A stretch of 42,748 nucleotides of DNA from Bdellovibrio sp. CG22_combo_CG10-13_8_21_14_all_39_27 (lineage in GTDB: Bacteria; Bdellovibrionota; Bacteriovoracia; Bacteriovoracales; Bacteriovoracaceae): positions 119,754 through 162,501 of the forward strand of contig PCTW01000010.1 in the NCBI GenBank assembly GCA_002786715.1, written 5' to 3'. The notes beneath the pieces are model-generated. The model saw only the letters and a program-made list of their open reading frames with translations. It was not told the origin of the DNA and made no database searches. How positions within the stretch are numbered: the stretch's first letter is position 1; every line of letters starts with the position of its first letter. The position numbers were made by a program, and so were the translations under genes. Shown in pieces: positions 22,541-42,003 of the stretch.

Positions 22541-23052
22541 AGATTTTTACTCACGTTTTGCTCTCTTGGCTTTTGCTCATTCAAACTGCTTTTGCAGCAG
22601 AAAGTAATTATGACATTAGGCAGTTGGCGCTTCCATCTGAAGTGAAAGATCTTTCGAAGGGAGTAGGGGCTATTTATTATTCTCCATCGATTAAAGGAAA
22701 AGTTCTCATTCCCGTGAATATTTGGGGCGATGTTGGTAAAACGGGCCTGCATTTTGTTCCAGTTGATACAACTTTGGTCATGGGGTTATCTCTCGCCGGT
22801 GGACCAAGTTCGCACGCTAAACTATCCGATATCAAACTAAACCGCACCGAAAATGGTAAGAGTAACGAATATACTTTTGACTTAAGCGGTGGCGGAACAG
22901 TAGATGCTCAATCGTTTAGTCTCAAACCTGGAGATACAATTTTTGTAGAAAATGATAAATACTATGAGAATAGAGCTTATTACACTTCACTTATTGGGGT
23001 AATTGCCACAATTTTATCTTCAGTATTACTTTATAGAGAAGTTAAAAAGTAA
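22537..23052 (+). CDS. Small single-SLBB-domain exported protein with C-terminal membrane helix
   Basis: The 171-aa protein has a signal peptide (residues 1-20, ending AFAAES). It has one SLBB beta-grasp unit (about residues 53-130): VLIPVNIWGDVGKTGLHFVP, then TTLVMGLSLAGGPSSHAKLSD, IKLNR and LKPGDTIFVEND. These are the usual SLBB marks (G-x-V-x-x-x-G, AGG, LxPGD). A C-terminal hydrophobic helix (LIGVIATILSSVLLY) follows. Full Wza exporters also have a poly_export domain, several SLBB units and an amphipathic C-terminal helix; none of these is present. It may link the polymerase complex to a separate outer-membrane exporter. Confidence 0.75.
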   Translation: MKIFTHVLLSWLLLIQTAFAAESNYDIRQLALPSEVKDLSKGVGAIYYSPSIKGKVLIPVNIWGDVGKTGLHFVPVDTTLVMGLSLAGGPSSHAKLSDIKLNRTENGKSNEYTFDLSGGGTVDAQSFSLKPGDTIFVENDKYYENRAYYTSLIGVIATILSSVLLYREVKK

Positions 23053-23054
23053 TT

Positions 23055-25279: not shown

Positions 25280-25305
25280 GAGGCCTCGGTTTTAACTTAT
25301 ACTTA

Positions 25306-25333
25306 ATTATAAAGTGATTGATGTAAATATCAA
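25306..25333 (-). promoter_or_regulatory. Promoter of the acyltransferase operon
   Basis: On the minus strand, TTGATA (25333-25328), 16 nt, then TATAAT (25311-25306) is a strong sigma70 promoter. Transcription should start near 25299, about 20 nt before the TTG start. Its -35 overlaps one arm of the inverted repeat TTGAT-6nt-ATCAA at 25318-25333. Confidence 0.6.
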
Positions 25334-25346
25334 CTTTAAGTATAGC
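25318..25346 (+). promoter_or_regulatory. Overlapping divergent promoter of the flippase gene
   Basis: TTGATG (25318-25323), 17 nt, then TATAGC (25341-25346) gives a moderate sigma70 match facing the flippase. Its -35 is the other arm of the inverted repeat used by the opposite promoter, so the two core promoters cross each other and cannot be occupied together. Confidence 0.4.
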
Positions 25347-25354
25347 GAGTCATA

Positions 25355-26875
25355 TTGAATTCATCGAAATTACATTTTTCAAACACTGCATTCAATTTTT
25401 CAACGAATTTAGCTAAAAGTTTAATTTCAATGATTATTGGTCTTGTTCTAACTCCCTTTTTAGTTACTTGGCTTGGAGATGACATATTTGCCCAAAATCG
25501 ATTATTGCTTGATCTCTTTTCTTATGTTGGTATTTTTGAGCTTGGACTCGTCGGTGCCATTTATCCATTAATCATTAATTCTCTCAATAATCGGGATGGC
25601 GATTTTGATCTCTATCAGGTGATTTCATATTCTTTCAGGATTTTTTTAAAGCAATCGTTTTTGCTGCTAGTTGTGTCAGCAGTTATGTTTTTGTTTTTAA
25701 ATTTTTTCTTCAATCTTAGTGGTCCTCATTTATTTCCTATACAAATGTCATGGGGAATTTATTCTCTGATTCTTATTTTATTTCCAATTAATGTTTTGAG
25801 AATCTATTTCGATTCGATACAAAAAATTAGCCTCATAAATATTTTATTAATCGTTCAATTAATTGTAGTCCAGTCATTGTGTGCTTTTCTCGCATGGAAA
25901 GGTTTTGGATTGATTGGTCAGATTTCGGCTAATGTAGTAGGCATATTTATTTTGAACATATTAATCATTGTTTTTTTCTTAAGATCTTTTGATCTGACTA
26001 AATTGAGAAAACAAAGCCTTTTAAAATTTGAAGATTTCAAAAAACGAGTGTGGGAATTAAATTGGAACTCCTTTGCACAGTCCACTTCTGGAAAGATTTG
26101 TCTCTACACTGATAATGTATTAGTTGGTCTCTTTTGGGGAGTTTCTGCCGTTACTCCTTTTTTTCTATGTCAAAAAATAGTTTCAATTATTCAACAGCAA
26201 CTCTTGTCAATCGGTTCTTCTTCTTGGGCATCATTAATTGATATATGGAATTCTGGTGATAGATCAAGATTCGAAGAGAAGATTTTTGAGTCCAATAAGT
26301 TTATCATGATCGCAAGTATTAGCTTCTTGGTCCCCGTTTTAGTGCTTAACAAGCTTTTTATTCAAGTTTGGATAGGGCTTCAGTATTTTTCTTTTGAAGT
26401 AACTCTTTTTGCCATTTTCGTTGCCATTTTCCAGAGCCTTATAAGTTTTTGGGGTTGGTTGCTGACAGGGTCAGGTAAGCTTAAATCAATGACAAAACCA
26501 ACTCTCATTTACAGTGGATTAAATCTGTGTCTCAGTGTTTTATTTAGTTATTATTATAAATTTGGACCGCTTCTGGGGACTGTTGTTGCACTTGTTTTTT
26601 ATTATAACTGGTCTCTTGGAGCTATCATCTGCAATGAGTTTCGACTTCAAAAACTTAAATTTTTCATGGCCGTTTTGCAACCCATCCTTTTGGGCTTCAT
26701 TTCTTATTTCGTATTAAATTATGGCCTATCTTTTTTTTCCTTCGAGGCAACCTGGGTTAATCTGGTTGTTTTGTCGGGTATTTCCTTTGTTTTTATGATT
26801 ATGATATCGGTCATAATTCTTTTAAATTCGAGGGAGCGTAAAATTTGGTTGCGACGCTTTCGACTAATTAAATAA
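25355..26875 (+). CDS. Wzx-like oligosaccharide flippase (MOP superfamily)
   Basis: The 506-aa product begins at TTG 25355. The next in-frame ATG lies inside the first membrane helix, so TTG is preferred. About twelve to fourteen hydrophobic helices cover the protein. The opening resembles Wzx/polysaccharide_synt proteins (FSTNLAKSLISMIIGLVLTP, then FLVTWLGDD), and the charged loops are short. It would move lipid-linked repeat units across the inner membrane before Wzy polymerisation. A hairpin terminator follows directly after the stop. Confidence 0.8.
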   Translation: MNSSKLHFSNTAFNFSTNLAKSLISMIIGLVLTPFLVTWLGDDIFAQNRLLLDLFSYVGIFELGLVGAIYPLIINSLNNRDGDFDLYQVISYSFRIFLKQSFLLLVVSAVMFLFLNFFFNLSGPHLFPIQMSWGIYSLILILFPINVLRIYFDSIQKISLINILLIVQLIVVQSLCAFLAWKGFGLIGQISANVVGIFILNILIIVFFLRSFDLTKLRKQSLLKFEDFKKRVWELNWNSFAQSTSGKICLYTDNVLVGLFWGVSAVTPFFLCQKIVSIIQQQLLSIGSSSWASLIDIWNSGDRSRFEEKIFESNKFIMIASISFLVPVLVLNKLFIQVWIGLQYFSFEVTLFAIFVAIFQSLISFWGWLLTGSGKLKSMTKPTLIYSGLNLCLSVLFSYYYKFGPLLGTVVALVFYYNWSLGAIICNEFRLQKLKFFMAVLQPILLGFISYFVLNYGLSFFSFEATWVNLVVLSGISFVFMIMISVIILLNSRERKIWLRRFRLIK

Positions 26876-26918
26876 TTCCCAATTATCAGACTGTTTTAGT
26901 GTGGGAATATTCTTTTCT
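26875..26918 (+). terminator. Candidate rho-independent terminator of the flippase gene
   Basis: ATTCCCA (26875-26881) and TGGGAAT (26902-26908) form a perfect 7-bp outer stem. A short inner ACT/AGT pairing lies within the 20-nt loop, and the T-rich run ATTCTTTTCT follows. It begins at the last base of the stop codon. Confidence 0.5.
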
Positions 26919-26968
26919 CAATCATTTTGTCTTTATTTCCGACAAGAACATTGAGGAGAACCTATAAG

Positions 26969-28183
26969 TTGAATCTCGACGATCAAGCAATTTTTTTCTT
27001 TTTTGTGGCCGTTTTTGCTTTGGGTACTTTTGGTTTGAGCTTTCTTTTTTGGATAACTAAAAAGAAATCTCTTTGGCTTAAAAAGTATCTTACTATACCA
27101 GCAAGAAAGTCTACGACTAATGCGGTTCAATTAGGTGGACTTCCGATTTCTTTGACAATTTTTTTCTCTTCTCTCTACCTTATTTACTCATCTTCTCGTA
27201 TAGATGGAAATTTTGAACTCGTTCTTTCGCGCTGGAGTTATTGTTCACTTTTTATCATTGCTTACGGTTATCTCGATGATCGTTTTGAGCTGCGACCGAT
27301 TGTTAAGCTTATAATGCAACTCTTTTGTGTATTAAGTTTTGCTCTGCTCACAGCTGAGATTTTTACCCGATACCAATCAGTATTAAGCTTTCTTATCGTT
27401 TTTGTATGGGGAATGGGCACTGTAAACGGTTCAAATCTCTTAGATGGTTTAGATACTCTTACTATTAAACTTACGACTTCAATTCTACTTTTTTATTTTT
27501 GTTGCTCTCTCATTTTTCAAATTCCTCCGCTGATGTGGGTGACATGCATGATTGCAGCTGGAATACTTTCTTTTTATTTTTTCAATCGTGAGCCGGCAAA
27601 AGTTCATCTTGGAGAAATTGGCGGAAGTTATATGGGAATGAGTTTTCTTCTTTTATCTTCATTTCTCTACTTAGGATTGATCCCAAAGTACGGCCATATC
27701 GAGAGTTGTGGCATGGCCCTCTTACCTTTAACTTTGCCAATGGTTGAGCTTGGCATCAGTTTTCTAAGAAGGATCTATAATAGAAAATCCCCATTTCGTG
27801 GAGATCGTCTCCACGTTCACCATATATTGAAAAACTATCACAATTTTTCAGCCTCGATCTCATCTTCGATCATGATGCTTGGCCACTTATTTTCTTTAAT
27901 GGTCTCTGGTCTTGTCGCTTATGCTATCAATCCTTGGCTTGGTTATTTTTGTCACTTAACCCTCATGATTTCGATGTACCTATCTATTGGAGTCAAGTAT
28001 TGGAAAGGTTCCGACACACTTGATCTCTCCGCCAAATCAATCTTTCAATATCTTCGTAAAAAAGATGTCATGATTATTGATTCTTCCAAAATTGACGACT
28101 TCCAAATCACTATTATGGAAGGCGAAGAATATGATGAAAATGATTTTGAAGATGATGGTGACGACGACTCAGAAGTGGCCTAA
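26969..28183 (+). CDS. WecA/MraY-like polyprenyl-phosphate sugar-1-phosphate transferase
   Basis: AGGAGA at 26954-26959 lies 9 nt before TTG 26969, so this start (404 aa) is preferred to the TTG at 26927. It has about ten helices and the family's cytoplasmic motifs: TTNAVQLGGLPI, YGYLDDRFELRP (the DD pair), NGSNLLDGLDTL and RGDRLHVHHIL (the HxHH loop). The motif normally reading F-x-G-D-x-G-S here reads VHLGEIGGSYMG, with Glu for the metal-site Asp. It would load the first sugar phosphate on the lipid carrier and so start repeat-unit synthesis. The C-terminal tail of about 20 residues is very acidic (Asp/Glu run). Confidence 0.85.
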   Translation: MNLDDQAIFFFFVAVFALGTFGLSFLFWITKKKSLWLKKYLTIPARKSTTNAVQLGGLPISLTIFFSSLYLIYSSSRIDGNFELVLSRWSYCSLFIIAYGYLDDRFELRPIVKLIMQLFCVLSFALLTAEIFTRYQSVLSFLIVFVWGMGTVNGSNLLDGLDTLTIKLTTSILLFYFCCSLIFQIPPLMWVTCMIAAGILSFYFFNREPAKVHLGEIGGSYMGMSFLLLSSFLYLGLIPKYGHIESCGMALLPLTLPMVELGISFLRRIYNRKSPFRGDRLHVHHILKNYHNFSASISSSIMMLGHLFSLMVSGLVAYAINPWLGYFCHLTLMISMYLSIGVKYWKGSDTLDLSAKSIFQYLRKKDVMIIDSSKIDDFQITIMEGEEYDENDFEDDGDDDSEVA

Positions 28184-28192
28184 AATAGTTTC

Positions 28193-29200
28193 ATGTCTAT
28201 TAAAATCCTTTTAACTACACCGGATTATCCTCCCAAGCTTGGTGGCTTATCTACATTCACCAGTAACTTAGAATCGATTTTAAGGCAAATGGGAGAGGTT
28301 ACGTTGCATGTATGGGATAATGTTCAACAATTAACTCAATTTAATAGCGATCAACATTTTGACTGGGGTATTCACGTTCATTTTATGGGAGGAGTGGCAG
28401 CTGCTCGCTTCTGTAAAAAGAATTTAAATTTTATCCATGGTTCTGAAGTTGCTTTCACCAGTCCAAATTTTATTAAAAGAACTTTTAAGAAAATAATGAA
28501 GAGGAAATTCATATCTTACCTTGAAGAAAGTCATTGGAATTTATTCATATCTGAATTCACAAGACAATTTTTAGTGAGCAAAGGACTCGAAAGTGACTTC
28601 TCTCGTGACCTTGTTTTTCATAATCTTATTGATTTAAAAGAGAATCAATTATTTGGCCCTTCATTTACCCAAGGTCCACTCCAATTAGTTTGTATTGCGA
28701 GAGATGTTCCTCATAAAAATATTGATGGGGCCATCACCATTGCCAAAAATATTCAAAACCAAATAAAAAGGGAAGTTGTTTTAACCATTAATGCAATGAG
28801 AGACCCAAGTTTGCATTCAAATATAAAAATGGTTTGTCTTCCTAATTTATCAAACGAAGAAAGAGAAAAAATATATCAAAAATCTCACTTTAACTTGTTA
28901 CCTTCGCTTGATTTTTCAAGTTCTGGATTCTTTGAAGGATTTGGTTTGACTGTCCTTGAAGCGGGGAAGTACGGAACGCCAAGTATCGTTTTCTCTGATC
29001 AAGGAGGACAAGGAGAAAGTGTCCATCATCGATTAACGGGATGGTCAGATTTATATTCCAATCGAGAGCAAATACCGCAGTACATTTCTGAATTTGATGA
29101 AGTCAGTTATCAGCAATTAAGAGTAAATACTTTTCAGCATACGATCGATAATCATGATAAGAATTTCTACAAAGCGCTGCTTGATGGAGTACTTAAATGA
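28193..29200 (+). CDS. Glycosyltransferase family 4
   Basis: The 335-aa product begins KILLTTPDYPPKLGGLSTFT, the common N-terminal GT4 motif with a Gly-Gly donor loop. It has LVCIARDVPHKNIDGAITIA and SGFFEGFGLTVLEAGKYGTP with the E-x7-E motif. It lies 9 nt after the WecA-like gene and overlaps the next GT gene by 4 nt, so it should act early on the lipid-linked repeat unit. No clear ribosome site precedes the ATG, which suggests translational coupling. Sugar specificity unknown. Confidence 0.85.
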   Translation: MSIKILLTTPDYPPKLGGLSTFTSNLESILRQMGEVTLHVWDNVQQLTQFNSDQHFDWGIHVHFMGGVAAARFCKKNLNFIHGSEVAFTSPNFIKRTFKKIMKRKFISYLEESHWNLFISEFTRQFLVSKGLESDFSRDLVFHNLIDLKENQLFGPSFTQGPLQLVCIARDVPHKNIDGAITIAKNIQNQIKREVVLTINAMRDPSLHSNIKMVCLPNLSNEEREKIYQKSHFNLLPSLDFSSSGFFEGFGLTVLEAGKYGTPSIVFSDQGGQGESVHHRLTGWSDLYSNREQIPQYISEFDEVSYQQLRVNTFQHTIDNHDKNFYKALLDGVLK

Positions 29201-30363
29201 TTCATTTGGTATTAAATTCTCCATATCTGGGAGGAGCTGAAAGAAGTGCTATTGAGCAGGCATCAATGAGTTTCGAAGTAAGCCAACTCGTTTTTCATAT
29301 TCCTAAAATAACGACCTCAATTGAAGATACTGATGTTTATAAATTTTTACAAAAGAAAATCCCTCAATGTCATATCTCGGAATTTCCTTTCCAAAAACAA
29401 TTGTTTCAAGTTTCTCGAACGCATTTTTTATCACAAATTTTTGGATTGCTTTTTATTCCTATCGCCGTAATGAAAATCTATTTTTATCGAAAAAGAATGA
29501 ACTTATCCAAAGCTGATGTTTTATGGCTAAATGGCAATAAAGCTGCTGTTTTGTTTTTGATGAGTCTCCTTTGCGGTGAAATGCAGGCGAAATTAGTCTG
29601 GCATTGGCGGGACTATCCCTCAACTTCGGGAATGATCTCTCTGGTAAAAGTACTTCTTAAAATTCTTAAACCGAAACGACTTCTTCTTTTGGCCAATTCT
29701 TTATCAGTTGAAAAATCGCTCAAGGCCTGGAGACCTATTTCAAGTATTGCTACCGACTATGTTTACAACCCATCCGGCGAAATCAATTTAAAAGAGTTTT
29801 TAAAAGTTGAGACTTTGGGTATTGCTTCTATGCTCGCTCCTTGGAAAGGTCATCATGATGTCTTATTAAATATTTCGACGAATAAGAAAGAGTTGCAAGA
29901 CCTAGGGATAAAAAGGTGCCTTATTTTTGGAGAGGAAATATATCAAACTTCAGGAGAGCATGCTGGGTATAAAAAGCAACTTGAAAAGTTAATTAGAAAG
30001 TTGAATATACAGGATTTTGTTTTTCTAAAAGGAAATGCAATGCCTGTAGATATCTATAGTCAGATTGATCTGCTTGTTCATTCATCAGTAAAAGCAGAAC
30101 CTTTTGGGAGAGTTTTAATTGAAAGTTTTTTAGCAGGAATTCCTGTTTTGAGTACCGGTTTAGGCGGAGCAGGCGAAGTTATTGGAGAGCATTTTGAACG
30201 GGGATGGGTTTATCAAATTCATCATCCACAGGATTTTTTCAAGCAAATTTCAAACATCATTTTAGCAAAAAATACTCCTGAAAAATTAGGTTTAGCAAAA
30301 AAATGGTCATATTCGATCAACGGTCAAATCCCTGGTAAGTTGAAAGAAGTTTTTCAAAACTGA
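29197..30363 (+). CDS. Glycosyltransferase family 4
   Basis: The 388-aa GT-B enzyme opens IHLVLNSPYLGGAERSAIEQ. Its C-terminal half has ASMLAPWKGHHDVLLNI, KGNAMPVDIYSQIDLLVHSS, AEPFGRVLIESFLAGIPVL with the E-x7-E motif, and GGAGEV. ATGA overlap with the preceding GT4 indicates one operon with the WecA-like gene. It is the last polysaccharide enzyme before the giant C25 protein, with a 163-nt gap after it and no clear terminator. Confidence 0.85.
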   Translation: MIHLVLNSPYLGGAERSAIEQASMSFEVSQLVFHIPKITTSIEDTDVYKFLQKKIPQCHISEFPFQKQLFQVSRTHFLSQIFGLLFIPIAVMKIYFYRKRMNLSKADVLWLNGNKAAVLFLMSLLCGEMQAKLVWHWRDYPSTSGMISLVKVLLKILKPKRLLLLANSLSVEKSLKAWRPISSIATDYVYNPSGEINLKEFLKVETLGIASMLAPWKGHHDVLLNISTNKKELQDLGIKRCLIFGEEIYQTSGEHAGYKKQLEKLIRKLNIQDFVFLKGNAMPVDIYSQIDLLVHSSVKAEPFGRVLIESFLAGIPVLSTGLGGAGEVIGEHFERGWVYQIHHPQDFFKQISNIILAKNTPEKLGLAKKWSYSINGQIPGKLKEVFQN

Positions 30364-30526: not shown

Positions 30527-33500
30527 ATGGTGAATATTATTAGAAAAAGCCCATTCTTTGCCTTTCTCCTTTTGTTGATTCTATCAACGACAACAAATAC
30601 ATATGCAGCTTGTGGTGCCATTGATCGAACATGGGATGGTTCATCAAGTTCTAAGTGGGCCACAAATAATAATTGGTCAGGAAATAACTTTCCCAATAGT
30701 TCCGCTGAAAATGCCATTATCGTAGCGGCTACTCGTCGACCGAAGGCAAAAGCCAATATTGTTGTCGGTTGTGTCGAGGTTCAATCAGGAGATATGCGGT
30801 CTTCCAATAATCGTACTTTTACAGTGCAAGGGGACTATTTTCGAGCGACAGGTGTTGCAAGTTTATTTGTTTCAACAAATCACAACTGGACAATTCATCT
30901 AGCAGGATCATCTCATCAGGATTTGGACATTGTTGATCCAGTCAATAATCTTACTATTTCAAATAGCACTTCAGTTTCTTTTAATTATCCCTTTGAGGTT
31001 CGAAATACTTTTACCATGAGTGGGACAGGTACTTATCTGAACGTCAATGAAGACTTAACTTTGTCAGATTCTGCCCAAACGGTGACCATTCCAAGTGCGG
31101 CAACTATCGAAGTGGCCACGGGGAAGACTTTAAATATTTTCGGTTCACTTGTTGTTAATGGAACTCTTATTCTAAATCCAGGCTCTACTCTAATGCTTGG
31201 AAATGCAAAATCGTTAACGGTGGGAGCAAGCGGTCAACTCAGATTACAAGGCTCAAGCGGTAACGTCGCCACTGTAAAAAGTCAGTCGGGCTCCATAGAT
31301 GCTGTTCTTAATGGATCTTTGTGGGCTCAGTACTTTAGATTTTCGAGCTTCAATCTAACTACTGCTGGTATCAAAATTAACGGTTCGGTAGCAATGCTCG
31401 AGTTTGGTGAATTCCATTTTATTCCAAGTGGAGGCTATGCTTTAACACTTGGATCTACCGTTAATATGCCTACTACAGCAAATGGAATTGGCTTCTATGA
31501 TGACAATGCCTACGGCAATACAAAATCTATCAATGCTTCAAGTTATAATTCTACTGCTATGATGCTTAATGATTGGTCTGGTAATGGAGGCACTCCTTCT
31601 GAAACAGATCCCAATTCAAAAATCGATTGGGGAGTTCAAGCAGGAACAACTCTGACTCTCTCAAATAATTCTAATATTGGCTTTCCTTCTGATCCTGTCA
31701 CAGCAGGATCGGCAGCTCAAGAGTTTGCCATTTTTGCTTTTGCTTTATCTCAAAATTCAGCACCAACGGATATTACTCAAGTGACTTTTACTCTTAATGG
31801 AACTGCAACAGCGTCAGATATTGATTATGTTCAAGTTTTCAATCAAGGGGCCAGTTGCCAAGTAAGAGGCGCACAAATTGGTGGAAATATTAACATGTCA
31901 GGTTTTCCAGCTACGGCGACAATCAACATACCTTCTGCAACTGTCACAACTAGTGGAACAACTCCCGCATGTATTCATGTTCTTGTGAGAACTACTGCAA
32001 CAGCTGAAAACAATGCAACCATTGGTATTAAAATCGATGGAACATCTGATGTCGTCAATTCTCAAGGCTACGACTTCTCTGGAGTTTCTGGTCCTCCTGT
32101 TTCTGGCCCTGTTGTTACCATTTCAGGAGACCCAACCCGTTTGTGGAGAGGGTCAAACTCTACCAATTGGAGAACAAATGGTAACTGGCAAGGGGGATGG
32201 CCTGGTTTTAATGAGAACTGTAAAATTCAAGCAGGTGTTCGAACTGTTAGACTTACTGCCAATGAAGCCTGTCAAAATACGACACTTGTTTCAACTGGAG
32301 AAATAAATTGGAACAATTCGAGTTTTAGTTTAACCGTTTGGGGTTATCTTAATGTTGAAGCTGGATTCACTTATACTAATGCCGCAAACTCATCACTGAT
32401 TATGGGGGGGGCAACGAACCAGTCAATGGTTATCTCTGAGCCCTTTCCTGGCAACGTCACGATCAATAATACAGGTGGTATTACGAGTATTATTTCCGTC
32501 GATGGTGATTCAACTATTAATGGAAATTTAACTGTAACTAATGGTCTTTTGAGAATTGCCAGCGGAGTCACTTTACAAGTGAATGGAAGTGTTACAGTTC
32601 AAACTGGCGCAAAACTTGATATCGAGCCAGGTGGTACATTGAAAATGGCCAACGGTAGAGTTGTCACAATTAATACAGGCGGAACCCTCGAAATGGTTGG
32701 AGGTGCCACAGATGCTATCATGAGTTCAACTGGTGGAACAGCAGCTTTTACCGTTGTTGTTAACGGAACCATTAAGGCCAGTCATTATCTTTTCGATCAT
32801 CTTGGTGTTAACGGTGTTACTATTAATGCAGGTGCCGCCATTGATGCCACTGATAATTTGTCATTCGGTACTTTTAAACATCCGGTTAATAATTCTTCGA
32901 CTCTTCTCACTTTGAATCTTCAAGTTCCAGGTAATACTTTATCGACAATGGCCTTTGACCTCAATGGCTCTGCAGCTTCAGCGGCAACGATTAAAAATAT
33001 CAAAACCAATACCACTGTTGGAACACTGACAATTAATAGTTATTCTGGAAATTTATCAGGTCCAACTTATGAAAATGCACCAGTTTATTTAATTAATTGG
33101 ACTGGTCTTACAAACACTTTAGATATTGCACAACAAGCGACTTCTTCAACTCAAGTTTATCAAGGTCAAACGTATAATATGGGGCGCTTCAGTTTGAAAC
33201 AAAGTCAAGCTGGAGCAAGCTACGTCAACACAAACATTAATTCTATCGCTTTAACATTAACTGGAACGGGATCATCAAATGATATTTCTGTTGCGAGATT
33301 ATATTATGATGATAATTGTGATTCTTCAGGTGGCGTTTTAAAAGGCACTGGTACTTTTGCGGGTAATCCAGCTAAAGTAACTTTTTCGGGTATGACAGGA
33401 ACAACAATTGAAGCATCAACAGGTGTTCCACCAACAAGATGTTTTTATGTTGAATATGACATTTCAGGTTCCGCCGTAAATGATAAAACTGTCGGTTTTT

Positions 33501-36500
33501 CTGTGGCCTCTTCAAGTGATATTGTTGATTCTCAAAGTTACGTCATTTCTGGTTCAACTCCGCTACCAATTACTTCAGGAGCGCCGTCGACAATTATTGG
33601 TTCTTCGACTGTTTGGACAGGAGCTGTAAATACCAATTGGGCGACAGCTGGAAATTGGAATGGTGGTGTACCAACAGCATCATTGAACTGTGTTATCAAT
33701 TCTACTGCTAATCAACCGACTATTTCAGCAGGTACAGGTATTTGTAATTCAGTTTTCCAAGGGGCCGGTTCTACTATCACTATTAATACTGGAACAACTC
33801 TACAATTATTTGGTTCTCTGAATAATGATGGAACTATAGTTGCAAATGGAACAATTGATTTTACCGACAACGGAATCAATTCTACAAATCAAGTAATAAA
33901 GAATGGACTAACTCTTGGAAATTTAAAGTTATCAAAAACGGCGAATGGTTTTGTTGCATTCAATGGTACTGTTACGGCCAACGCTTTAAACTTAAGCACT
34001 GCAAATTCTTTATTAATTTTAAGTTCTGGAAGAGTTTTAATCCTTCCAAATGGCGCAGTTTTAAACTCAGGAAAATTAAGGATTGATGCTGCAGGTGTTG
34101 TGAAAATAGGAAATGGTCAATCCTTCACAGTCGCAGGTGGCGATTTACAGTTTAATGGTACGGCAGAAGCTTATCCACAATCGCTTTCGAACAAGGCTAA
34201 AATGACCGTTGATGGTGCCGGAACCTGGGGCCTCACTGGAACCAGCGGGAATATTACTTTATCAGGGTTTAATCTCGATTATTTAAACAACAATGGACTC
34301 AACTTAACAGGTTCAGTAAATCTGCTGGCCTTTACGGGCGGACAATTTACGAACTTACCAACTGCGTATGCTTCTATGAGTGTTATGAATATCAATTCAA
34401 CGGGAACTATTCCAGCACTCGCTACCAATGTCGGCATCAACTGGGGACCAATTAATGCTTATCCAGTTCCAGCTGATACTTACAAACTTGCCAGCTCTAC
34501 CGGATGTGCTAGTCATTCTATGGACTTTGACGATTATTTCGGTGACTGGCTCGATAATGCAACTGTCGGTTTTGATGTCAATTCGAAAGTTTCTCAGACA
34601 GGTTGTAATGTTACTTTCTCTGGCGCTGTGACGGCCGTCTCGGTAAAAAATCTTAGAGCAGATGCTTATAATGGGGCAGTCGATTTGCGTTGGGATACGA
34701 CCAATGAAACGGATCATTTAGGATTCCATGTTTTTAGAAGTGATGAAAATGGGGATCACTTTATTCAACTTTCTCCTCGTATGATTCGCAACTTTAATAC
34801 GTCCGGAAGTTTAGGTGGTTCTTATCGCTTTGTTGATTTCTCTGCCGTAAATGACACTACTTATTTTTACTATATTCAAGATTTTGATAATCTTGGCATC
34901 TCTAAAATGTGGGGACCTGTTGCCGCAAGACCACAAAACGGTTTAGGAACGCCTCCCGCCGATGGAGGCAGTGATAATAGCGGGTCACGCCCAGATCCCA
35001 TCAATCCGACACCGAATCCTTCTCCGTACCCTAATGGATATGAAGATCTCGGCGATGGATTTACTATTCTGGCCCGTTCTCAAGATACAATACGTTTGAA
35101 AATTGTTCCAGGAGCATTGACTACAACTAATGCTACGTGGAATGCCTCTTACAAAGAGATTGCGATAGATGGTTACAGTAAAAAAGAAGAAGCTGGAATG
35201 CCGGCCCTGCTTGAACGAACTTTATTAATTGAAGTTTCAGATTATTATTCACAAGTTCAACAACAAGTTTTGAGTTCTTCTCAGTCGACATTATCAGATC
35301 TTTTAGTTTCACCGGCGCCGCAATGGTCATTAGATGGGAGTGGAGTTCTTATTCCAAGTTATAGCCCCAATGCTACCGCCTATGCCAGTTCTCTTGTAAA
35401 TCCTTCGACTTTTACTCATTTGCATTCGGAATTGATCTCACAAGGGGCAAAGAAATTTATAAAAATTGTCATTTCACCAACGTTGTATTCTGCTTCGACC
35501 AAAACGATAACCCGTTTGGACGAGATGGTTGTTGATCTTTTTCTAGGGACTTCTCCTTGGTATGAAGATACCAAGAATTCATCTCTGTATGCACGTGACA
35601 ATACTGTTCATATAGGTATTGATAAAACGGGAATGTTTGAACTGAACTATAGTGATTTGACTTCGGCTTTTGTCGATGGCCCTGTCGCTGGAAAACCCAT
35701 TTCAAGTTTGCGAGTTTTTCAAAATGAAGTTGAAATTCCAATTGAAGTCATAAGTGCTGATAGTATTTTCAATGCTGGTGACAAAATTCGCTTTATGGGA
35801 CTCTTTACTCCTTCACAGGAAAACAATGAATCCTTTGTCGTTCTGAGCGCCTACGACTTACTTGGCACTTCACAAACTCCTATGAGATTAAGTTCATTTA
35901 ATGTCGATGGTAATCCTAGTTTAGGTTCAACTTCTACAAAGCAAGCCTTTGCGACTATTTCTGCTGAAGAAAATAATATTTACGTAACTGACAGTCCTGT
36001 TGGTGCTGAACATGATCACTTCTTCTGGAAAATGATTTTTGCGCCTTATCCGGCCAACGTCAATTATGAAAAGCTACCTTTCTCGATGACCATTTCTGGG
36101 CTTGATGTGGATTCCAATTCCGATGCCATTTTGTCAGTTTATCTCAAGGGAACAACAGATGAGAAGGGAAATATCAATGACCTCGTCCATAGCTTAGGTC
36201 TTTATGCTAATGCTGCCATAGATATGGTGACCCATGTCGAATTTGTAGGAGGCAGATATCAAAAGATTAATTTCTCTATTCCACTTGAGTACTTAGTTGA
36301 TGGTGCCAATAATTTCATTTTGAGAGCTCTTGCAAGCCAAACTCCGTATAGTGATCGTATGCAAATTGATCGCGTAGAACTAACTTATCCCTATATTCGC
36401 TATAAATTAAATGATCAAACAATTTTGCGAAATGAATACGCCAATACCAAAATGAGTTTTTCAGGATTAAGTACTAGCACGGTACGCATCTTTGATATCA

Positions 36501-37984
36501 GCAATTCAGAAGCTCCATCAGAGCTGAATAATGTGTTGATCTCTGGCCCTGATGCCAACAGCGAGTATACTGCCTCTTTCTATTCAAACTCAGGTGTAAA
36601 TGCAGAGAATGGAAACAATTTTTTAATTATCGATAATCAACTTTATTATTCAGTGACATCTTTAAAAGTGAATAGAGGTTCCATTAAGGGCCTAAGAGAT
36701 ACAGACTGGAATAAATCCATGATTGTGATCGGTGGCGAGGGCGCGCTGGAAGCGGTTGAAGAATTAACTTATAGACGTGAAGCTCAAGGATTAAATGTAC
36801 TTAAAGTGACTTATCAGGAAATTTACAACGAATTCAGTTTTGGTCGTGCTTCTTCATTTGCGATCAAAGAATTTTTACTAAATGCCTATGATACTTGGTC
36901 AACTCGGCCAAGTTATGTTTTGATCCTTGGCGATTCAACTTATGATCCCAAAGATCATTTTGGCTTCGGCATTAGACCTGACGTTTCACCGATGCCAGTT
37001 GTGAGTGGCCAGATCTATGACTTTGGTTCCGATAACTGGTTTGTTACTAGGTTGGATGCTGTCACTCCTTTGATGGCCATTGGACGCTTTCCATCGTCAG
37101 ATCCTTCCGTCCTTCAAACCATGGTTCGCAAATCTCTCGATTTTGAAGATGAACTTGCCAGTCCTGATTTTGATACAAACCGTAAGATTACTTTTTTAGT
37201 TGATAATTCGGATAATAACGAGCGCTTTAGACAACGTAGTGATGAGATTTCTCAAATGTCAGCGTTATCACAGGCCAACATCGTTCCGCAGACTTTCGAT
37301 CGAGGAGAGTTGGGTGATGCTCAGATGACATCTGATATAGAAAGCAGTTTTTCTAATCAATCACTCATTGTTAATTATTTGGGGCATGGAGCTGAAGATC
37401 TATGGACAGATAATGATCTCTTTACCACAGCTGAAGCTGAGGTATTAAGCAATACGGAATACCCAATCCTCATGGCCTTGAACTGTTTAAATAATTATTT
37501 TTATGACCCTGATGAAACTTGGTTCTCACTTGGTGAAACACTTCTAAGTAATAAGTCTGGCGGGGCCGTTGCTTTTATTGGCTCTACTGCTATGACGACG
37601 CCAAATGCCCAAGCTCAATTTGCTAAAAACTTTTATCAGCTTTTAGGAGATCGTATTAAAAACGGTTCGAAAAGTACGCGTCTTGGAGATCTTTTCATGT
37701 TGGCGAAGCAACAACTCCCTAGCGAAGGTTATTACTCTGATGTTCAAAATAGTTACTTACTGGTAGGTGACCCATCGATGAAGTTTCCTGAAAAGCTGTT
37801 CTTCAATATTCCAGCTTCGGTTGTTTCCTCTCCAGCAGCGGCTCCTACAAAAAGTGGAGGAGGATGCTCGGCCATGGGAGCGGATGGTGGCCCAACAACA
37901 GGTTCCGGATTATTAGAGATTGTGTCTCTGATTTTGAGCTATATGATTGGAGTTTGGTTGATGAGAAAAACTGGGTTAAGATAG
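30527..37984 (+). CDS. Giant secreted gingipain-like (peptidase C25) protein with C-terminal sorting tail
   Basis: The 2485-aa product has a signal peptide (residues 1-27, NTYA cleavage site). Three modules follow, each opened by a W-x-G-x5-W-x5-NW motif (Trp36, Trp540, Trp1030) and continued by repetitive beta-rich sequence. A fibronectin-III-like domain (about 1373-1475) and a Pro/Asn-rich linker (about 1475-1505) come next. A C25 peptidase domain covers about 2062-2425 (YVLILGDSTYDP). The catalytic pair is likely His2287 (LGHGAEDLW) and Cys2320 (ALNCLNNY), 33 residues apart as in gingipain R. The C-terminus has Gly-Gly-Gly-Cys (Cys2447), a hydrophobic helix (about 2463-2480) and basic RKTGLR, like MYXO-CTERM-type tails. 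Surface display and proteolysis are inferred. The RiPP-like precursor begins 8 nt downstream. Confidence 0.88.
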   Translation: MVNIIRKSPFFAFLLLLILSTTTNTYAACGAIDRTWDGSSSSKWATNNNWSGNNFPNSSAENAIIVAATRRPKAKANIVVGCVEVQSGDMRSSNNRTFTVQGDYFRATGVASLFVSTNHNWTIHLAGSSHQDLDIVDPVNNLTISNSTSVSFNYPFEVRNTFTMSGTGTYLNVNEDLTLSDSAQTVTIPSAATIEVATGKTLNIFGSLVVNGTLILNPGSTLMLGNAKSLTVGASGQLRLQGSSGNVATVKSQSGSIDAVLNGSLWAQYFRFSSFNLTTAGIKINGSVAMLEFGEFHFIPSGGYALTLGSTVNMPTTANGIGFYDDNAYGNTKSINASSYNSTAMMLNDWSGNGGTPSETDPNSKIDWGVQAGTTLTLSNNSNIGFPSDPVTAGSAAQEFAIFAFALSQNSAPTDITQVTFTLNGTATASDIDYVQVFNQGASCQVRGAQIGGNINMSGFPATATINIPSATVTTSGTTPACIHVLVRTTATAENNATIGIKIDGTSDVVNSQGYDFSGVSGPPVSGPVVTISGDPTRLWRGSNSTNWRTNGNWQGGWPGFNENCKIQAGVRTVRLTANEACQNTTLVSTGEINWNNSSFSLTVWGYLNVEAGFTYTNAANSSLIMGGATNQSMVISEPFPGNVTINNTGGITSIISVDGDSTINGNLTVTNGLLRIASGVTLQVNGSVTVQTGAKLDIEPGGTLKMANGRVVTINTGGTLEMVGGATDAIMSSTGGTAAFTVVVNGTIKASHYLFDHLGVNGVTINAGAAIDATDNLSFGTFKHPVNNSSTLLTLNLQVPGNTLSTMAFDLNGSAASAATIKNIKTNTTVGTLTINSYSGNLSGPTYENAPVYLINWTGLTNTLDIAQQATSSTQVYQGQTYNMGRFSLKQSQAGASYVNTNINSIALTLTGTGSSNDISVARLYYDDNCDSSGGVLKGTGTFAGNPAKVTFSGMTGTTIEASTGVPPTRCFYVEYDISGSAVNDKTVGFSVASSSDIVDSQSYVISGSTPLPITSGAPSTIIGSSTVWTGAVNTNWATAGNWNGGVPTASLNCVINSTANQPTISAGTGICNSVFQGAGSTITINTGTTLQLFGSLNNDGTIVANGTIDFTDNGINSTNQVIKNGLTLGNLKLSKTANGFVAFNGTVTANALNLSTANSLLILSSGRVLILPNGAVLNSGKLRIDAAGVVKIGNGQSFTVAGGDLQFNGTAEAYPQSLSNKAKMTVDGAGTWGLTGTSGNITLSGFNLDYLNNNGLNLTGSVNLLAFTGGQFTNLPTAYASMSVMNINSTGTIPALATNVGINWGPINAYPVPADTYKLASSTGCASHSMDFDDYFGDWLDNATVGFDVNSKVSQTGCNVTFSGAVTAVSVKNLRADAYNGAVDLRWDTTNETDHLGFHVFRSDENGDHFIQLSPRMIRNFNTSGSLGGSYRFVDFSAVNDTTYFYYIQDFDNLGISKMWGPVAARPQNGLGTPPADGGSDNSGSRPDPINPTPNPSPYPNGYEDLGDGFTILARSQDTIRLKIVPGALTTTNATWNASYKEIAIDGYSKKEEAGMPALLERTLLIEVSDYYSQVQQQVLSSSQSTLSDLLVSPAPQWSLDGSGVLIPSYSPNATAYASSLVNPSTFTHLHSELISQGAKKFIKIVISPTLYSASTKTITRLDEMVVDLFLGTSPWYEDTKNSSLYARDNTVHIGIDKTGMFELNYSDLTSAFVDGPVAGKPISSLRVFQNEVEIPIEVISADSIFNAGDKIRFMGLFTPSQENNESFVVLSAYDLLGTSQTPMRLSSFNVDGNPSLGSTSTKQAFATISAEENNIYVTDSPVGAEHDHFFWKMIFAPYPANVNYEKLPFSMTISGLDVDSNSDAILSVYLKGTTDEKGNINDLVHSLGLYANAAIDMVTHVEFVGGRYQKINFSIPLEYLVDGANNFILRALASQTPYSDRMQIDRVELTYPYIRYKLNDQTILRNEYANTKMSFSGLSTSTVRIFDISNSEAPSELNNVLISGPDANSEYTASFYSNSGVNAENGNNFLIIDNQLYYSVTSLKVNRGSIKGLRDTDWNKSMIVIGGEGALEAVEELTYRREAQGLNVLKVTYQEIYNEFSFGRASSFAIKEFLLNAYDTWSTRPSYVLILGDSTYDPKDHFGFGIRPDVSPMPVVSGQIYDFGSDNWFVTRLDAVTPLMAIGRFPSSDPSVLQTMVRKSLDFEDELASPDFDTNRKITFLVDNSDNNERFRQRSDEISQMSALSQANIVPQTFDRGELGDAQMTSDIESSFSNQSLIVNYLGHGAEDLWTDNDLFTTAEAEVLSNTEYPILMALNCLNNYFYDPDETWFSLGETLLSNKSGGAVAFIGSTAMTTPNAQAQFAKNFYQLLGDRIKNGSKSTRLGDLFMLAKQQLPSEGYYSDVQNSYLLVGDPSMKFPEKLFFNIPASVVSSPAAAPTKSGGGCSAMGADGGPTTGSGLLEIVSLILSYMIGVWLMRKTGLR

Positions 37985-37992
37985 GATAATTT

Positions 37993-38157
37993 ATGAAGAA
38001 TGAAAAAAAGACAACGAAGAAAAGTTACCAAAAACCTAAAATCGAAACCGAGCCCCTAATGAGTTTTGGTGCCGTATGCAACGGAACCGTAAATGGTGGG
38101 CGAAAGGCGAGTACTGGTGCACCAGATTTTTGCAATTCCAAACGTCTCAATTCCTAA
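37993..38157 (+). CDS. Candidate RiPP precursor peptide (54 aa)
   Basis: This short ORF starts at ATG 37993 with AGGA six bases upstream, 8 nt after the C25 stop. The leader is Lys-rich and contains SYQKPKIETE (residues 11-20). Its Y-x-x-P-x-I matches the YxxP-type leader motif that PqqD-like recognition domains bind in lasso-peptide systems. The rest (residues 21-54) is small and polar: SFGAVCNGTVNGG, KASTGAPDFCNSK, with Cys29 and Cys47, and a C-terminal Ser54. HPr-kinase-like, PqqD-like and radical SAM genes follow. The last 65 nt overlap the kinase frame. Identification as a precursor rests on context and motif; the product structure is unknown. Confidence 0.65.
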   Translation: MKNEKKTTKKSYQKPKIETEPLMSFGAVCNGTVNGGRKASTGAPDFCNSKRLNS

Positions 38158-39070
38158 AGATGTCCAATGGGGTGACGTCACTCATCAAGAACTTGCCCAA
38201 AAAAAATTGGACCTGCTCCAAAAAGTAAATAGTTTGGCCCTGAGTCAAACTGTAAAGTTAAAATCATGTGGGCAACAGTTTAAAATCAATTCTCATTTTG
38301 CCATTCCTAAATCTCTAGAAGCTCTTTTATCGGATGAGCCGCGAGTCCACCTTGAATTTAATTGGTATGATTGCGAATCTCTGGGGATGGGCAGCAGTGA
38401 GTTTGAAGATGAGTCGGGCCAGGATTGCGTTTTATTCTCGCTAGGAGAATGGGAGTTTTCCATTCAAAGGGATTTTGTATCGGCCAAAAATCACCATCAA
38501 GTTGTTCTTATTTCCTATTCAAAGATTGCGGATGGGTTCCAGAATGCCCTTCGCTGTTATATACCTCGGCTGCTTTTGAGAATGAATTTTTTAGTTGTTC
38601 ACTGCTCAGCTGTTGCCCTTAATGATCAACAGGCCATCGCCTTTATGGGGCCGTCAGGAGTGGGTAAAAGTACCATTCTTTCGAGAGCACCAAACCTCGT
38701 TGCCTTACATGACGATATGAATATTCTTCGCATTGGAATGGATCATAAAGTTTATATAAAAGGTGCTGAATTAGGTTCCATCTTAGTTCCAGATCTTCCA
38801 AAAATATCGAAGGAATATCAATTGATCGAAATTTATCAGTTGAGACAATCTCAAAAAAATGAAATTTTTGAACTAAAACCGGCCGATCGTTTCACATTAC
38901 TGTTAAGCAATTTTGCCAATTATTTTTGGGAAACATTGACCTCTGGTGAAGTCGATCAGCTGACTAAAGCTGCTCAAGATATTACTAATTCTGTTCCTAT
39001 TTCAGAGTTTAGAAATAATGCCGATGTCGAGGTATGGGAAATGTTAAAGGTTCGCCATGGCCTTAGTTAA
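38093..39070 (+). CDS. HPr-kinase-like protein (HprK-related, RiPP-associated)
   Basis: The frame opens with ATG 38093 (325 aa). GTG 38117 and TTG 38207 are later options, and the first two overlap the precursor ORF. The C-terminal half carries the HprK fold: LVVHCSAVAL, GPSGVGKST as Walker A (residues 186-194) and LHDDMNIL, with the paired acidic residues 207-208 of HprK-type kinases. Bifunctional HprK lacks the long N-terminal region seen here. HprK homologues in lasso-peptide clusters phosphorylate a C-terminal serine of the precursor, and the adjacent peptide ends in Ser. No HPr or PTS gene lies nearby, so a peptide substrate is more likely than HPr. Confidence 0.8.
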   Translation: MVGERRVLVHQIFAIPNVSIPKDVQWGDVTHQELAQKKLDLLQKVNSLALSQTVKLKSCGQQFKINSHFAIPKSLEALLSDEPRVHLEFNWYDCESLGMGSSEFEDESGQDCVLFSLGEWEFSIQRDFVSAKNHHQVVLISYSKIADGFQNALRCYIPRLLLRMNFLVVHCSAVALNDQQAIAFMGPSGVGKSTILSRAPNLVALHDDMNILRIGMDHKVYIKGAELGSILVPDLPKISKEYQLIEIYQLRQSQKNEIFELKPADRFTLLLSNFANYFWETLTSGEVDQLTKAAQDITNSVPISEFRNNADVEVWEMLKVRHGLS

Positions 39071-39449
39071 TTTCACTCATCATGGCCTGAGTATGTGCCC
39101 CGTTTTAATACCCGAAGATATTATCTTGGTTGAGACTGATCATGGAGCTATTCAGCTAGGTGATATTGTTCTCTTTAAAGATAATGAATGCGGAGATTAT
39201 GTTGCTCATAGAGTTGTTGCCCTCGAACCTTTGACGACAAAAGGTGACAATTCTCCCTTTGATGAATTGATAAAGAGCGATTATGTTCTAGGGATAGTCG
39301 TTGGACGAATTCGCGCTGGTCGGCCCTTAAATTGGGGTTTCAAAGGGACTCGATTTAAATCATCAAAAGCAAGGCTGTCTCGGTTATATCACAAAAAGTA
39401 TACTCGAGTTTTTCGAGGCCTTTTTAAACTACTTTCTCGTCTTATTTAG
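39057..39449 (+). CDS. Small S26-type (SipW/ER-like Ser-His) signal peptidase family protein
   Basis: The 130-aa product has the signal peptidase box GLSMCPVL with nucleophile Ser12. It then has GDIVLFKD, VAHRVVAL with His51 in the place of the usual Lys, and TTKGDN (61-65). Ser-His with KGDN is the pattern of SipW and ER-type enzymes. There is no N-terminal membrane anchor; instead the C-terminus is long, basic and amphipathic (about residues 95-130). It overlaps the kinase gene by 14 nt. It is a good candidate for leader-peptide removal from the RiPP precursor, by inference. Confidence 0.75.
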   Translation: MALVNFTHHGLSMCPVLIPEDIILVETDHGAIQLGDIVLFKDNECGDYVAHRVVALEPLTTKGDNSPFDELIKSDYVLGIVVGRIRAGRPLNWGFKGTRFKSSKARLSRLYHKKYTRVFRGLFKLLSRLI

Positions 39450-40359: not shown

Positions 40360-40626
40360 ATGAGTTACAAAAAACGGTCTGATCTTGCCTTGAAAATGAT
40401 TGGTGAACAATTAGTCATTATTGATTCGAAAATCGGTAAGGCCGTTCATCGCTTAAATGATGTGGGTGTTTTTATTTGGGATCTCATTGAATCTTCTTCT
40501 TCCGATGAAATTTTGGCCAAACTGATGGATGAATTTGAAGTTGATGAAGCAGAGGCTCGAGCAGATCTCAAACAATTTGTAGCCGATCTTGAAGCCCTTC
40601 AGCTCATCGAGAAAAGTCATGAGTAA
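40360..40626 (+). CDS. PqqD-like peptide recognition protein
   Basis: The 88-aa product has the winged-helix PqqD pattern: a beta-hairpin (MIGEQLVIIDSKIGKAVHRLN), DVGVFIWDLIES, then helices (SDEILAKLMDEFEVDEAEA) and a final helix (DLKQFVADLEALQLIEK). In lasso and radical SAM peptide systems this RRE domain binds the leader of the precursor and delivers it to the enzyme. The neighbouring 54-aa peptide has a suitable Y-x-x-P motif. It overlaps the radical SAM gene by 8 nt. Full length for a free-standing RRE protein. Confidence 0.9.
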   Translation: MSYKKRSDLALKMIGEQLVIIDSKIGKAVHRLNDVGVFIWDLIESSSSDEILAKLMDEFEVDEAEARADLKQFVADLEALQLIEKSHE

Positions 40627-41659
40627 GCATGATCCTGCTCCACGATTGGGACTTCTGGCCCAATCGCAAGAGCACGCCTATCAAAATTGCCAACCGTTGA
40701 ATGCCACAATAGAAATTACTATGGGTTGTAATTTGGCCTGTCAGCATTGTTATAATTTTGATCGATCCAAAGCGATGCCTCCAGAATTCAAGAACAATGC
40801 ATTATCGGATACAGAGATTCACGGCATTTTGAAAGACATTATTAAAGAAGGGGCATTTTTTATTAATTTGAGTGGTGGCGAAGCTTTGCTCCATCCTTCA
40901 CTTGATCAGTTTATCCAAACTATCGTTCAGGAAAAAGCAATTGCTCGTCTCAAAAGCAACGGAATTTTGTTAACCTCAAAGCGCTGCTCTGAATTGGTCC
41001 AAGCGGGTCTACAGGGAGTGGATATAACTCTTTATGGTATGAGTGAGGAGAGCTATCAAATCTTCAGTCGCAAAAGTGCTTTTTCTCAGGCCATTCAAGG
41101 AGTCAAGAATGCGCAAGAGGTAGGTCTTGAAGTTCATATTAATTTTATTCTTCACAAGGCCAATGTCCATGAACTCGATTTATTTCTTACTGCCGTAAAT
41201 GCAAATCAATGGTCTTTCGCGATTAGCGATGAAATCACCGAGCGCTACGATCATTCACCGGGGGCCCTAGATTGGAAAATTACTGCTAATCAAATGAGAG
41301 ATCTTTTGGCCGGACCTCATCGTGCTTTGTTTGATTACAGAAATACTGATCATGCACTTCAATGTTCTTGTGCTCGTTCAGTGGTAGGAATTTCGGTCAC
41401 GGGAAAAGTCTTTCCCTGCATTGGGGCACCAATTATTGCCGGCGATTTGCGACGTGACTCATTTTCTAATATTTGGAAAAATTCTGCTGAATTTACAAAA
41501 ATTAGGAATCTCAAAACTAGTGATTTTAAGTCCTGTGAAAGTTGTGACGTGATTGATTATTGCCAAAGAAGTTCAGGTGCTATTTTTTGTGATACAGGCG
41601 ATTATACGGGATGCTCTGAAACCACAATCTCTGCTGCTAAAATTCGTTCTGAAAATTAA
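40619..41659 (+). CDS. Radical SAM/SPASM peptide-modifying enzyme
   Basis: From ATG 40619 the product is 346 aa. An earlier in-frame start at 40589 would overlap the PqqD gene by 38 nt without benefit. The radical SAM cluster motif is C-x3-C-x2-C (Cys37, Cys41, Cys44; GCNLACQHCYNF). FINLSGGEALLHP and LKSNGILLT follow as expected for SAM binding. The C-terminal SPASM region has CSCARSVVGISVTG and FPCIG, then KSCESCDVIDYCQRSSG and later Cys residues, enough for one or two auxiliary clusters. Such enzymes make thioether or C-C crosslinks, or epimerise residues. Partner PqqD is fused by overlap; the likely substrate is the 54-aa peptide. Confidence 0.9.
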   Translation: MSKHDPAPRLGLLAQSQEHAYQNCQPLNATIEITMGCNLACQHCYNFDRSKAMPPEFKNNALSDTEIHGILKDIIKEGAFFINLSGGEALLHPSLDQFIQTIVQEKAIARLKSNGILLTSKRCSELVQAGLQGVDITLYGMSEESYQIFSRKSAFSQAIQGVKNAQEVGLEVHINFILHKANVHELDLFLTAVNANQWSFAISDEITERYDHSPGALDWKITANQMRDLLAGPHRALFDYRNTDHALQCSCARSVVGISVTGKVFPCIGAPIIAGDLRRDSFSNIWKNSAEFTKIRNLKTSDFKSCESCDVIDYCQRSSGAIFCDTGDYTGCSETTISAAKIRSEN

Positions 41660-42003
41660 TTCTTTTTCTTATTGAGAACCGTATGTAGCGCCTTGAGAAT
41701 TTTTCTCCAATGAGCAAAAGTCTCAAGATCTTCAAAGTAGAGTTTAAATCCAGCCAGATGCTCGTTCTCTCTCTCTTCACTCCAGCATTGAGTGACGGAT
41801 AATAAGACTTCTTCTTTTCCAAAGAGTTTGATTTTAATTCGGCGGTTTTCACCTTCTAGTTGAATCATTTTTGGACTTCTTATTTGAATTCCTCCAAGAC
41901 CGATATCTTTTAAAATCCATCCTTCTTGAACGAGGTAATCAATTTCTATAGGAGATTTAAGTTTACGAACATCATAGCGAGGGAATAATCGAATATGATT
42001 CAT
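41656..42003 (-). CDS. PilZ-domain protein
   Basis: The 115-aa product opens RLFPRYDVRK, with the R-x3-R part of the c-di-GMP site. It has WILKDIGLGGIQIRSP, matching D-x-S-x-x-G with Gly for Ser. The rest follows the PilZ barrel (IKIKLFGKEEVLLSVTQCW, AGFKLYFEDLE). Binding of cyclic di-GMP is likely but the Ser change may weaken it. It is translated from ATGA overlap with the upstream unknown gene and its stop overlaps the radical SAM stop. C-di-GMP control of polysaccharide or motility is a usual PilZ role. Confidence 0.75.
   Translation of the reverse strand: MNHIRLFPRYDVRKLKSPIEIDYLVQEGWILKDIGLGGIQIRSPKMIQLEGENRRIKIKLFGKEEVLLSVTQCWSEERENEHLAGFKLYFEDLETFAHWRKILKALHTVLNKKKN

Follow-up and report, generated by a model that had tools for sequence, protein, structure and literature searches.

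A conserved precursor peptide of Bdellovibrionota in a putative radical SAM RiPP cassette with lasso-type C-terminal tailoring

The DNA analysed here, a stretch of 42,748 nucleotides referred to below as the window, carries a 54-aa open reading frame on its forward strand (ATG at 37993, TAA ending at 38157) that is a genuine and strongly conserved gene of Bdellovibrionota. With a probability of about three in four, we regard its product as the precursor of a RiPP, the leader of which would be held by a PqqD-family protein, the core modified by a radical SAM enzyme, and the terminal serine phosphorylated and probably capped further. The genes around it are best read as a RiPP cassette that is built on a radical SAM enzyme and tailors the C-terminus in the manner of lasso peptides, and the resulting peptide-modification system of the Bdellovibrionota is apparently undescribed so far. 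The gene family, the cassette and the co-occurrence of its members have been established in the present analysis, and from these we infer the chemistry and the function of the product.

The precursor, MKNEKKTTKKSYQKPKIETEPLMSFGAVCNGTVNGGRKASTGAPDFCNSKRLNS, begins with a Lys-rich N-terminus, followed by the motif Y12-x-x-P15-x-I17 (38026 to 38043), the predicted PqqD-bound part of the leader, and by a core of about 27 residues of the form [GA]AxCNGxxxGGRK...C...S. The core contains the cysteines Cys29 (38077 to 38079) and Cys47 (38131 to 38133) and closes with the C-terminal Ser54 (38152 to 38154), the candidate phosphorylation site. Directly 5' of the ORF stands an AGGA, which overlaps the stop codon of a preceding gene of giant size (2485 aa) that ends 8 nt before the precursor gene starts. 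The first-pass annotation had described the ORF by the segment SYQKPKIETE, Cys29, Cys47 and an Asn-Ser end, and this description agrees with the window sequence.

The conservation of this layout has been followed in 35 aligned copies from 34 genomes, one of which (G274) supplies two. Y-x-x-P-x-[ILV] is kept in 35/35, as are exactly two cysteines downstream of the tyrosine; both cysteines and Lys38 are invariant. RK occurs in 32 of the 35 copies and either G-x-[RK]-K or GGTK in all of them. At the C-terminus, 32 copies have Ser, 2 have Thr and a single one, L127, which is cut by its contig end, has Ala; all 34 complete copies thus terminate in Ser or Thr, as against 31 of 199 control ORFs (at least 100 aa, 12 loci). 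The prediction made from the window, that Y-x-x-P, both cysteines and the terminal serine would be conserved among relatives, is thereby borne out, with Thr replacing Ser twice, and frameshifts or stops beside an intact kinase, which had been named as the sign against the gene, are found in none of the 35 copies. Among nine pairs of precursor genes, four with computable dS gave a dN/dS of ~0.10–0.14, and the other five were saturated at synonymous sites (pN 0.07–0.20); the peptide is under purifying selection. Its identity to the window copy amounts to 51–70% within the first 12 copies, compared with 28–34% for the kinase. Because strong homologues, conserved motifs and purifying selection (dN/dS) come together, the reading as a chance ORF is ruled out. 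A divergent subfamily has been observed in addition (L130–L133), which has the core C..GG.K..C..LL[ST] and is accompanied by more divergent kinases; G274 carries this type as well as the main one. Further divergent precursors, L194 and L196, lie beside divergent kinases and keep YxxPxI and the terminal Ser, with more than two Cys. Peptide distances correlate weakly with those of the radical SAM enzyme, the PqqD protein and the nucleotidyltransferase (Spearman 0.25–0.30), and no weight is placed on these values.

In a protein search of 97 genomes, comprising the window's own and those of relatives, 23 gave any precursor match at E ≤ 10, and strong matches fell in 12 including the own genome (E ≤ 2.2e-9, next best E 0.09), those in the 11 other genomes spanning E 2e-9 to 2e-20. 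Strong kinase matches (E ≤ 3.5e-16) fall in the same 12 genomes, and eight further genomes show weak kinase matches only, at E 0.002 or above. A 12-row precursor profile run over 368 Bdellovibrionota genomes has located homologues at 35 places in 34 genomes, and Halobacteriovorax, a predator of bacteria, lies within the lineage that carries the precursor. A search of genome contigs with F[GA]AxCNGxxxGxRK as a DNA pattern, strict enough to miss divergent copies, has yielded 22 stretches, 20 of which are Bdellovibrionota peptides; the matches in Verrucomicrobia (L094) and Balneolales (L104) are short and have been set aside as chance. Neither the precursor (72,556 records) nor the nucleotidyltransferase has a match in plasmid records, where the kinase search yielded four weak matches, and no precursor copy has been confirmed among viral contigs; spread of the precursor by plasmids or phages is rejected on these grounds. 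The precursor and nucleotidyltransferase profiles are without a match in PDB sequences, and NCBIfam contains no match at all for the precursor peptide.

Downstream of the precursor gene, the window encodes, in this order, the kinase frame, an S26-like peptidase, a convergent PF14907 gene, a PqqD protein and a radical SAM/SPASM enzyme. Precursor, RRE (PqqD) and radical SAM/SPASM enzyme are encoded together, the combination that marks a radical SAM RiPP system. Enzyme profiles derived from 12 loci and applied to the full set of 35 have recovered the kinase at 33 loci, the radical SAM enzyme at 31, PqqD at 29, the nucleotidyltransferase at 28 and the peptidase at 26; several parts are absent because the contig stops before them, and G261 has its kinase, PqqD, radical SAM and peptidase genes on another contig. 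Of the 368 genomes, 33 have both peptide and kinase, 1 has the peptide only, 4 have the kinase only and 330 have neither. The single peptide-only genome (G275) is 64% complete and has its precursor copy at a contig end. Among the kinase-only genomes, G122 has a contig that opens with the kinase from its first base, G022 and G316 have divergent, Ser-ending YxxPxI peptides with more than two Cys near the kinase, and G365 is without any precursor found. The first-pass annotation had placed the peptide with a PqqD protein, a radical SAM enzyme and an HprK-like kinase, a grouping that stands as a cassette; the PF14907 protein, the S26-like peptidase and the C25 protease had been overlooked. At four loci (L049, L050, L111, L114) a second PqqD-like gene lies near the kinase, and positions 4148–8693 of L196 (G316) hold a divergent version with three radical SAM genes, a kinase and a Ser-ending peptide.

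The kinase has an HprK/PEPCK fold by prediction and matches its profile from 38174 to 39070 (forward strand), within a mechanically called ORF that opens at the ATG of 38093. In the 15 kinases compared, out of 33, H143, K165 (the Walker Lys), D180 and D181 are invariant (15/15), and this His-Lys-Asp-Asp set is the motif described for lasso-peptide kinases in the available text of PMC9266682. The structure model (pLDDT 84) adopts the PEPCK/HprK fold with a best Z of 15.7 to PEPCK (rmsd 4.9 over 260 residues), and HprK 1knx is reached at Foldseek rank 42 (E 6e-5); by sequence alone, PEPCK is most similar. Matches to NCBIfam models stay below the cut-offs (ScmC in 11 of 15, HprK_rel_A in 13 of 15). 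At 23 of the 34 other loci the kinase starts between −1 and +16 nt from the peptide stop, and at 11 of all 35 it lies elsewhere or outside the available stretch, not directly after the peptide. The window departs from this pattern, since directly behind the peptide stop the kinase frame offers no ordinary start codon: the ATG at 38160, 2 bases after that stop, opens a different frame, which runs into eight consecutive A (38199–38206). Possible causes are an error of the assembly, slippage or a start within the peptide gene (38093), and the oddity (38093–38210) leaves the frame of the precursor itself untouched.

The PqqD-family leader-binding protein (RRE; 40360 to 40626, forward strand; PF05402, E 7e-16) finds its nearest PDB relatives in the lasso B1 proteins TbiB1 and TfuB1. 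The adjoining radical SAM/SPASM maturase (40619 to 41659, forward strand) matches PqqE 6c8v and SkfB 6efn among PDB sequences, and CxxxCxxC is present in 29 of 31 copies, the remaining two being cut by contig ends. Two different layouts of the SPASM cysteines occur among these 31 genes for a peptide core that is nearly identical, and the exact radical chemistry is difficult to assign for this reason. Adjoining the maturase, a PilZ-like protein is encoded on the reverse strand (41656 to 42003, weak match with E 8e-4), homologues of which lie near four other loci. The S26-like Ser/His peptidase (39057 to 39449, forward strand), in which Ser, His and a Lys-Gly-Asp (KGD) box are kept in 25–26 of 26 copies, occurs as a fusion with the kinase (L057) and with the radical SAM enzyme (L052); both fusions argue for work alongside these enzymes in the cytosol, where the peptidase is probably located. 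In the nucleotidyltransferase-fold protein of PF14907 (39429 to 40337, reverse strand), K-G, R and D-x-D are kept in 28/28. Its model (pLDDT 87) aligns with the ANT(2'')-Ia fold at Z 10.5 and rmsd 3.0 over 153 residues, and a Foldseek search with the model gave nothing below E 0.01. This protein and the peptidase are candidates for tailoring and for leader removal, respectively.

The main partner among those overlooked is the giant C25 (PorU-like) protease, encoded in the window from 30527 to 37984 on the forward strand (C25 domain 209.7 bits), which co-occurs with the peptide even where the two are not adjacent. Such proteins mostly comprise 2,000–3,500 aa, and the window protein, with 180 of 420 bits, does not pass NF033707 (T9SS sortase PorU). 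Its C-terminus consists of Gly-Gly-Gly-Cys, a hydrophobic stretch taken as a transmembrane segment, and a basic, Arg-containing tail, and the same type of ending, with a Gly-Cys motif ahead of the hydrophobic and basic parts, is seen in all 30 giant copies inspected. We take this ending to resemble MYXO-CTERM-type sorting signals, and it looks like a surface anchor. PF01364 detects some C25 protein in 43 of the 97 genomes, and C25 ORFs longer than 2,000 aa are found in 11 of the 12 peptide-positive and 0 of the 85 peptide-negative ones. When the C-terminal 560 residues were used as the query across the 368 genomes, the giant protease was found in 27/34 peptide-positive and 4/334 peptide-negative genomes (7 with the peptide only, 330 with neither); at the level of 181 genera, 19 have both, 3 the peptide only, 2 the protease only and 157 neither. 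The corresponding p-values of 2e-30 (genomes) and 1e-20 (genera) overstate independence because the genomes are related. The pattern persists within genera, G108 being the sole g15 genome with either gene among the matches listed. An ABC-2 permease occurs in 27/34 peptide-positive genomes, has not been found in the window's own genome, and lies beside the giant gene rather than the peptide in G044, G114 and G115. Upstream (22537 to 30363), the window carries polysaccharide-type genes (SLBB, PF00953, PF01943-like and several GT4 glycosyltransferases), and similar genes recur near several other cassette copies.

From these parts a route of six steps may be proposed. The PqqD protein would bind the Y-x-x-P-x-I leader, as suggested by the motif and by the likeness to lasso B1 proteins, and would present the core C-N-G-x3-G-G-R-K...C to the radical SAM/SPASM enzyme for modification, in which the new bond would most likely involve one or both invariant cysteines. 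The HprK/PEPCK-fold kinase would phosphorylate the C-terminal Ser (Thr in two copies) in the way PadeK acts on paeninodin, which we infer because the terminal hydroxyl is invariant, the catalytic His-Lys-Asp-Asp set is kept and the co-occurrence is near-perfect. The PF14907 nucleotidyltransferase may cap that phosphate with a sugar or nucleotide, comparable to PsmN, and the S26-like peptidase would release the leader by a cut close to the conserved F-[GA]-A-x-C. On the basis of their association, the ABC-2 exporter and the giant C25 protease may, in most genomes, cooperate with the product on the cell surface. Phosphorylation is the strongest of the predicted chemical steps, and the cysteine crosslink is the weakest. 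Weighing against the route are the missed cut-offs of the curated ScmC and HPr-rel-A kinase models, the likeness of the kinase sequence to PEPCK, the 11 loci at which the kinase is not directly behind the peptide or falls outside the available stretch, the two SPASM layouts, and, for the window, the missing ordinary kinase start and the ABC-2 permease not found in its own genome.

In the available text of two papers, PadeK is described to phosphorylate the C-terminal Ser of paeninodin, PsmN of pseudomycoidin is reported as a nucleotidyltransferase adding a sugar or nucleotide to the phosphate, and C-terminal Ser phosphorylation of ribosomal peptides is described only for lasso peptides (PMC9266682, PMC8498205). 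As far as these texts describe them, the two phosphorylated lasso peptides share with the present cassette the C-terminal Ser and an HprK-homologue kinase with His-Lys-Asp-Asp, and pseudomycoidin additionally a nucleotidyltransferase in the cluster (PMC9266682, PMC8498205). Two marks of a PadeK-type kinase are present here, the motif in 15/15 kinases and the terminal hydroxyl residue in 34/34 complete substrates. The cassette differs from paeninodin and pseudomycoidin in having no B2 protease and in containing a radical SAM/SPASM enzyme, an S26-like peptidase and two core Cys; furthermore, it has been found only in Bdellovibrionota in our scans. SynChlorMet cassettes consist of ScmA, ScmC, ScmD, ScmE and ScmF (NCBIfam) and likewise unite an HprK-like protein, a PqqD and radical SAM enzymes, whereas the present cassette has one radical SAM gene instead of two and adds PF14907, the S26-like peptidase and C25. 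The ScmC model matched 11 of 15 kinases below its cut-off (best E 1.3e-9; 17 bits of 125 where a score is given), and the window PqqD and radical SAM proteins reach 22.6 of 100 bits for ScmD and 89 of 400 bits for ScmE. The HPr-rel-A system (TIGR04352/TIGR04353), for which we know of no curated precursor, shares an HprK-related kinase and PqqD; its models are again matched below the cut-offs (kinase 17 bits of 200 where given, window PqqD 27.1 of 35). The cut-offs of both systems are failed, yet the cassette plainly works along similar lines. Sactipeptide and other thioether RiPPs, matured by enzymes of the SkfB and PqqE class, share the radical SAM/SPASM maturase and a Cys-containing core, and to our knowledge they have no kinase or nucleotidyltransferase. 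In the open-licence part of PubMed Central, no paper has been found that joins HprK, PqqD, radical SAM and RiPP, that contains SynChlorMet, or that pairs Bdellovibrio with peptidase C25, and none of those listed seems to describe the present cassette.

Lasso leaders carry a YxxPx-type motif bound by PqqD-like B1 proteins, and such a leader (35/35) together with a PqqD nearest to lasso B1 is present here. With the kinase and nucleotidyltransferase known, in the accessible text, from the paeninodin and pseudomycoidin clusters (PMC9266682, PMC8498205), this could be taken to indicate a lasso peptide with a diverged cyclase. PF13471, the lasso B2 protease, is above cut-off in 0/34 peptide-positive genomes, with two weak matches below it, and the place of a constant partner is taken by the radical SAM enzyme. 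Since B2 is absent, the system is not a lasso system; a lasso peptide in the usual form is refuted, and one with a diverged cyclase is highly improbable. The kinase could also have another target or serve as a regulator, with the nucleotidyltransferase acting directly on the terminal hydroxyl: the kinase is below every curated kinase cut-off seen, and the PF14907 fold, as modelled, could use a hydroxyl acceptor directly. The invariant His-Lys-Asp-Asp, the standing of the kinase as the most constant partner of the peptide (33/34 genomes) and its start within 16 nt of the peptide stop at 23 loci speak against this, and we consider it improbable.

The state of the cysteines is less settled, as a thioether, a radical modification elsewhere or a plain disulfide are possible. 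An ordinary disulfide between both cysteines, with the radical SAM enzyme acting on other residues, for example Lys38, Arg37 or the N-G pair, is quite conceivable, if not favoured; Lys38 matches the cysteines in its invariance, a single core is paired with two SPASM layouts, and SPASM enzymes make several bond types. Exactly two core Cys, kept in 35/35 copies, beside a radical SAM/SPASM enzyme are, on the other hand, the usual picture for thioether chemistry, and a bond involving one or both of them remains our preferred reading. The peptide may finally be, instead of a free natural product, a small dedicated partner of the C25 protease, as a modified inhibitor, an activating subunit or a surface tag that offers Gly-Gly-Arg-Lys to a gingipain-like active site. 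The genome and genus counts given above, the restriction of C25 ORFs above 2,000 aa to 11 of 12 peptide-positive genomes, the genomes in which the giant lies elsewhere, away from the peptide (G007, G052, G044), the gap of 8 nt in the window and the conserved basic pair are all consistent with such a role. Against it stand G034, where the cassette is complete and C25 is lacking entirely, as well as G265 and G290, where the giant is encoded and both peptide and kinase are missing; a preference of C25 enzymes for Arg/Lys is known from gingipains, another branch. We regard this role as less likely than not, though more likely than a different kinase target.

The RiPP precursor reading ties the kinase/nucleotidyltransferase logic of lasso peptides to a radical SAM enzyme, and C-terminal tailoring would consequently be a general RiPP module and not a lasso speciality. 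The small core (about 27 residues) and the single kinase and radical SAM enzyme keep the system manageable for work in a laboratory host, and its association with a giant C25 protease that is apparently anchored offers a role open to direct testing. We hold it for a rather speculative proposal that the peptide, modified by the radical SAM enzyme, phosphorylated at its C-terminus and then glycosylated or nucleotidylated, is a surface component, not an antibiotic, working with this protease. If true, a PorU-like enzyme would attach or process a peptide-phosphate-sugar unit on the surface of Bdellovibrionota cells, with the ABC-2 exporter, where present, and the neighbouring polysaccharide genes also involved.
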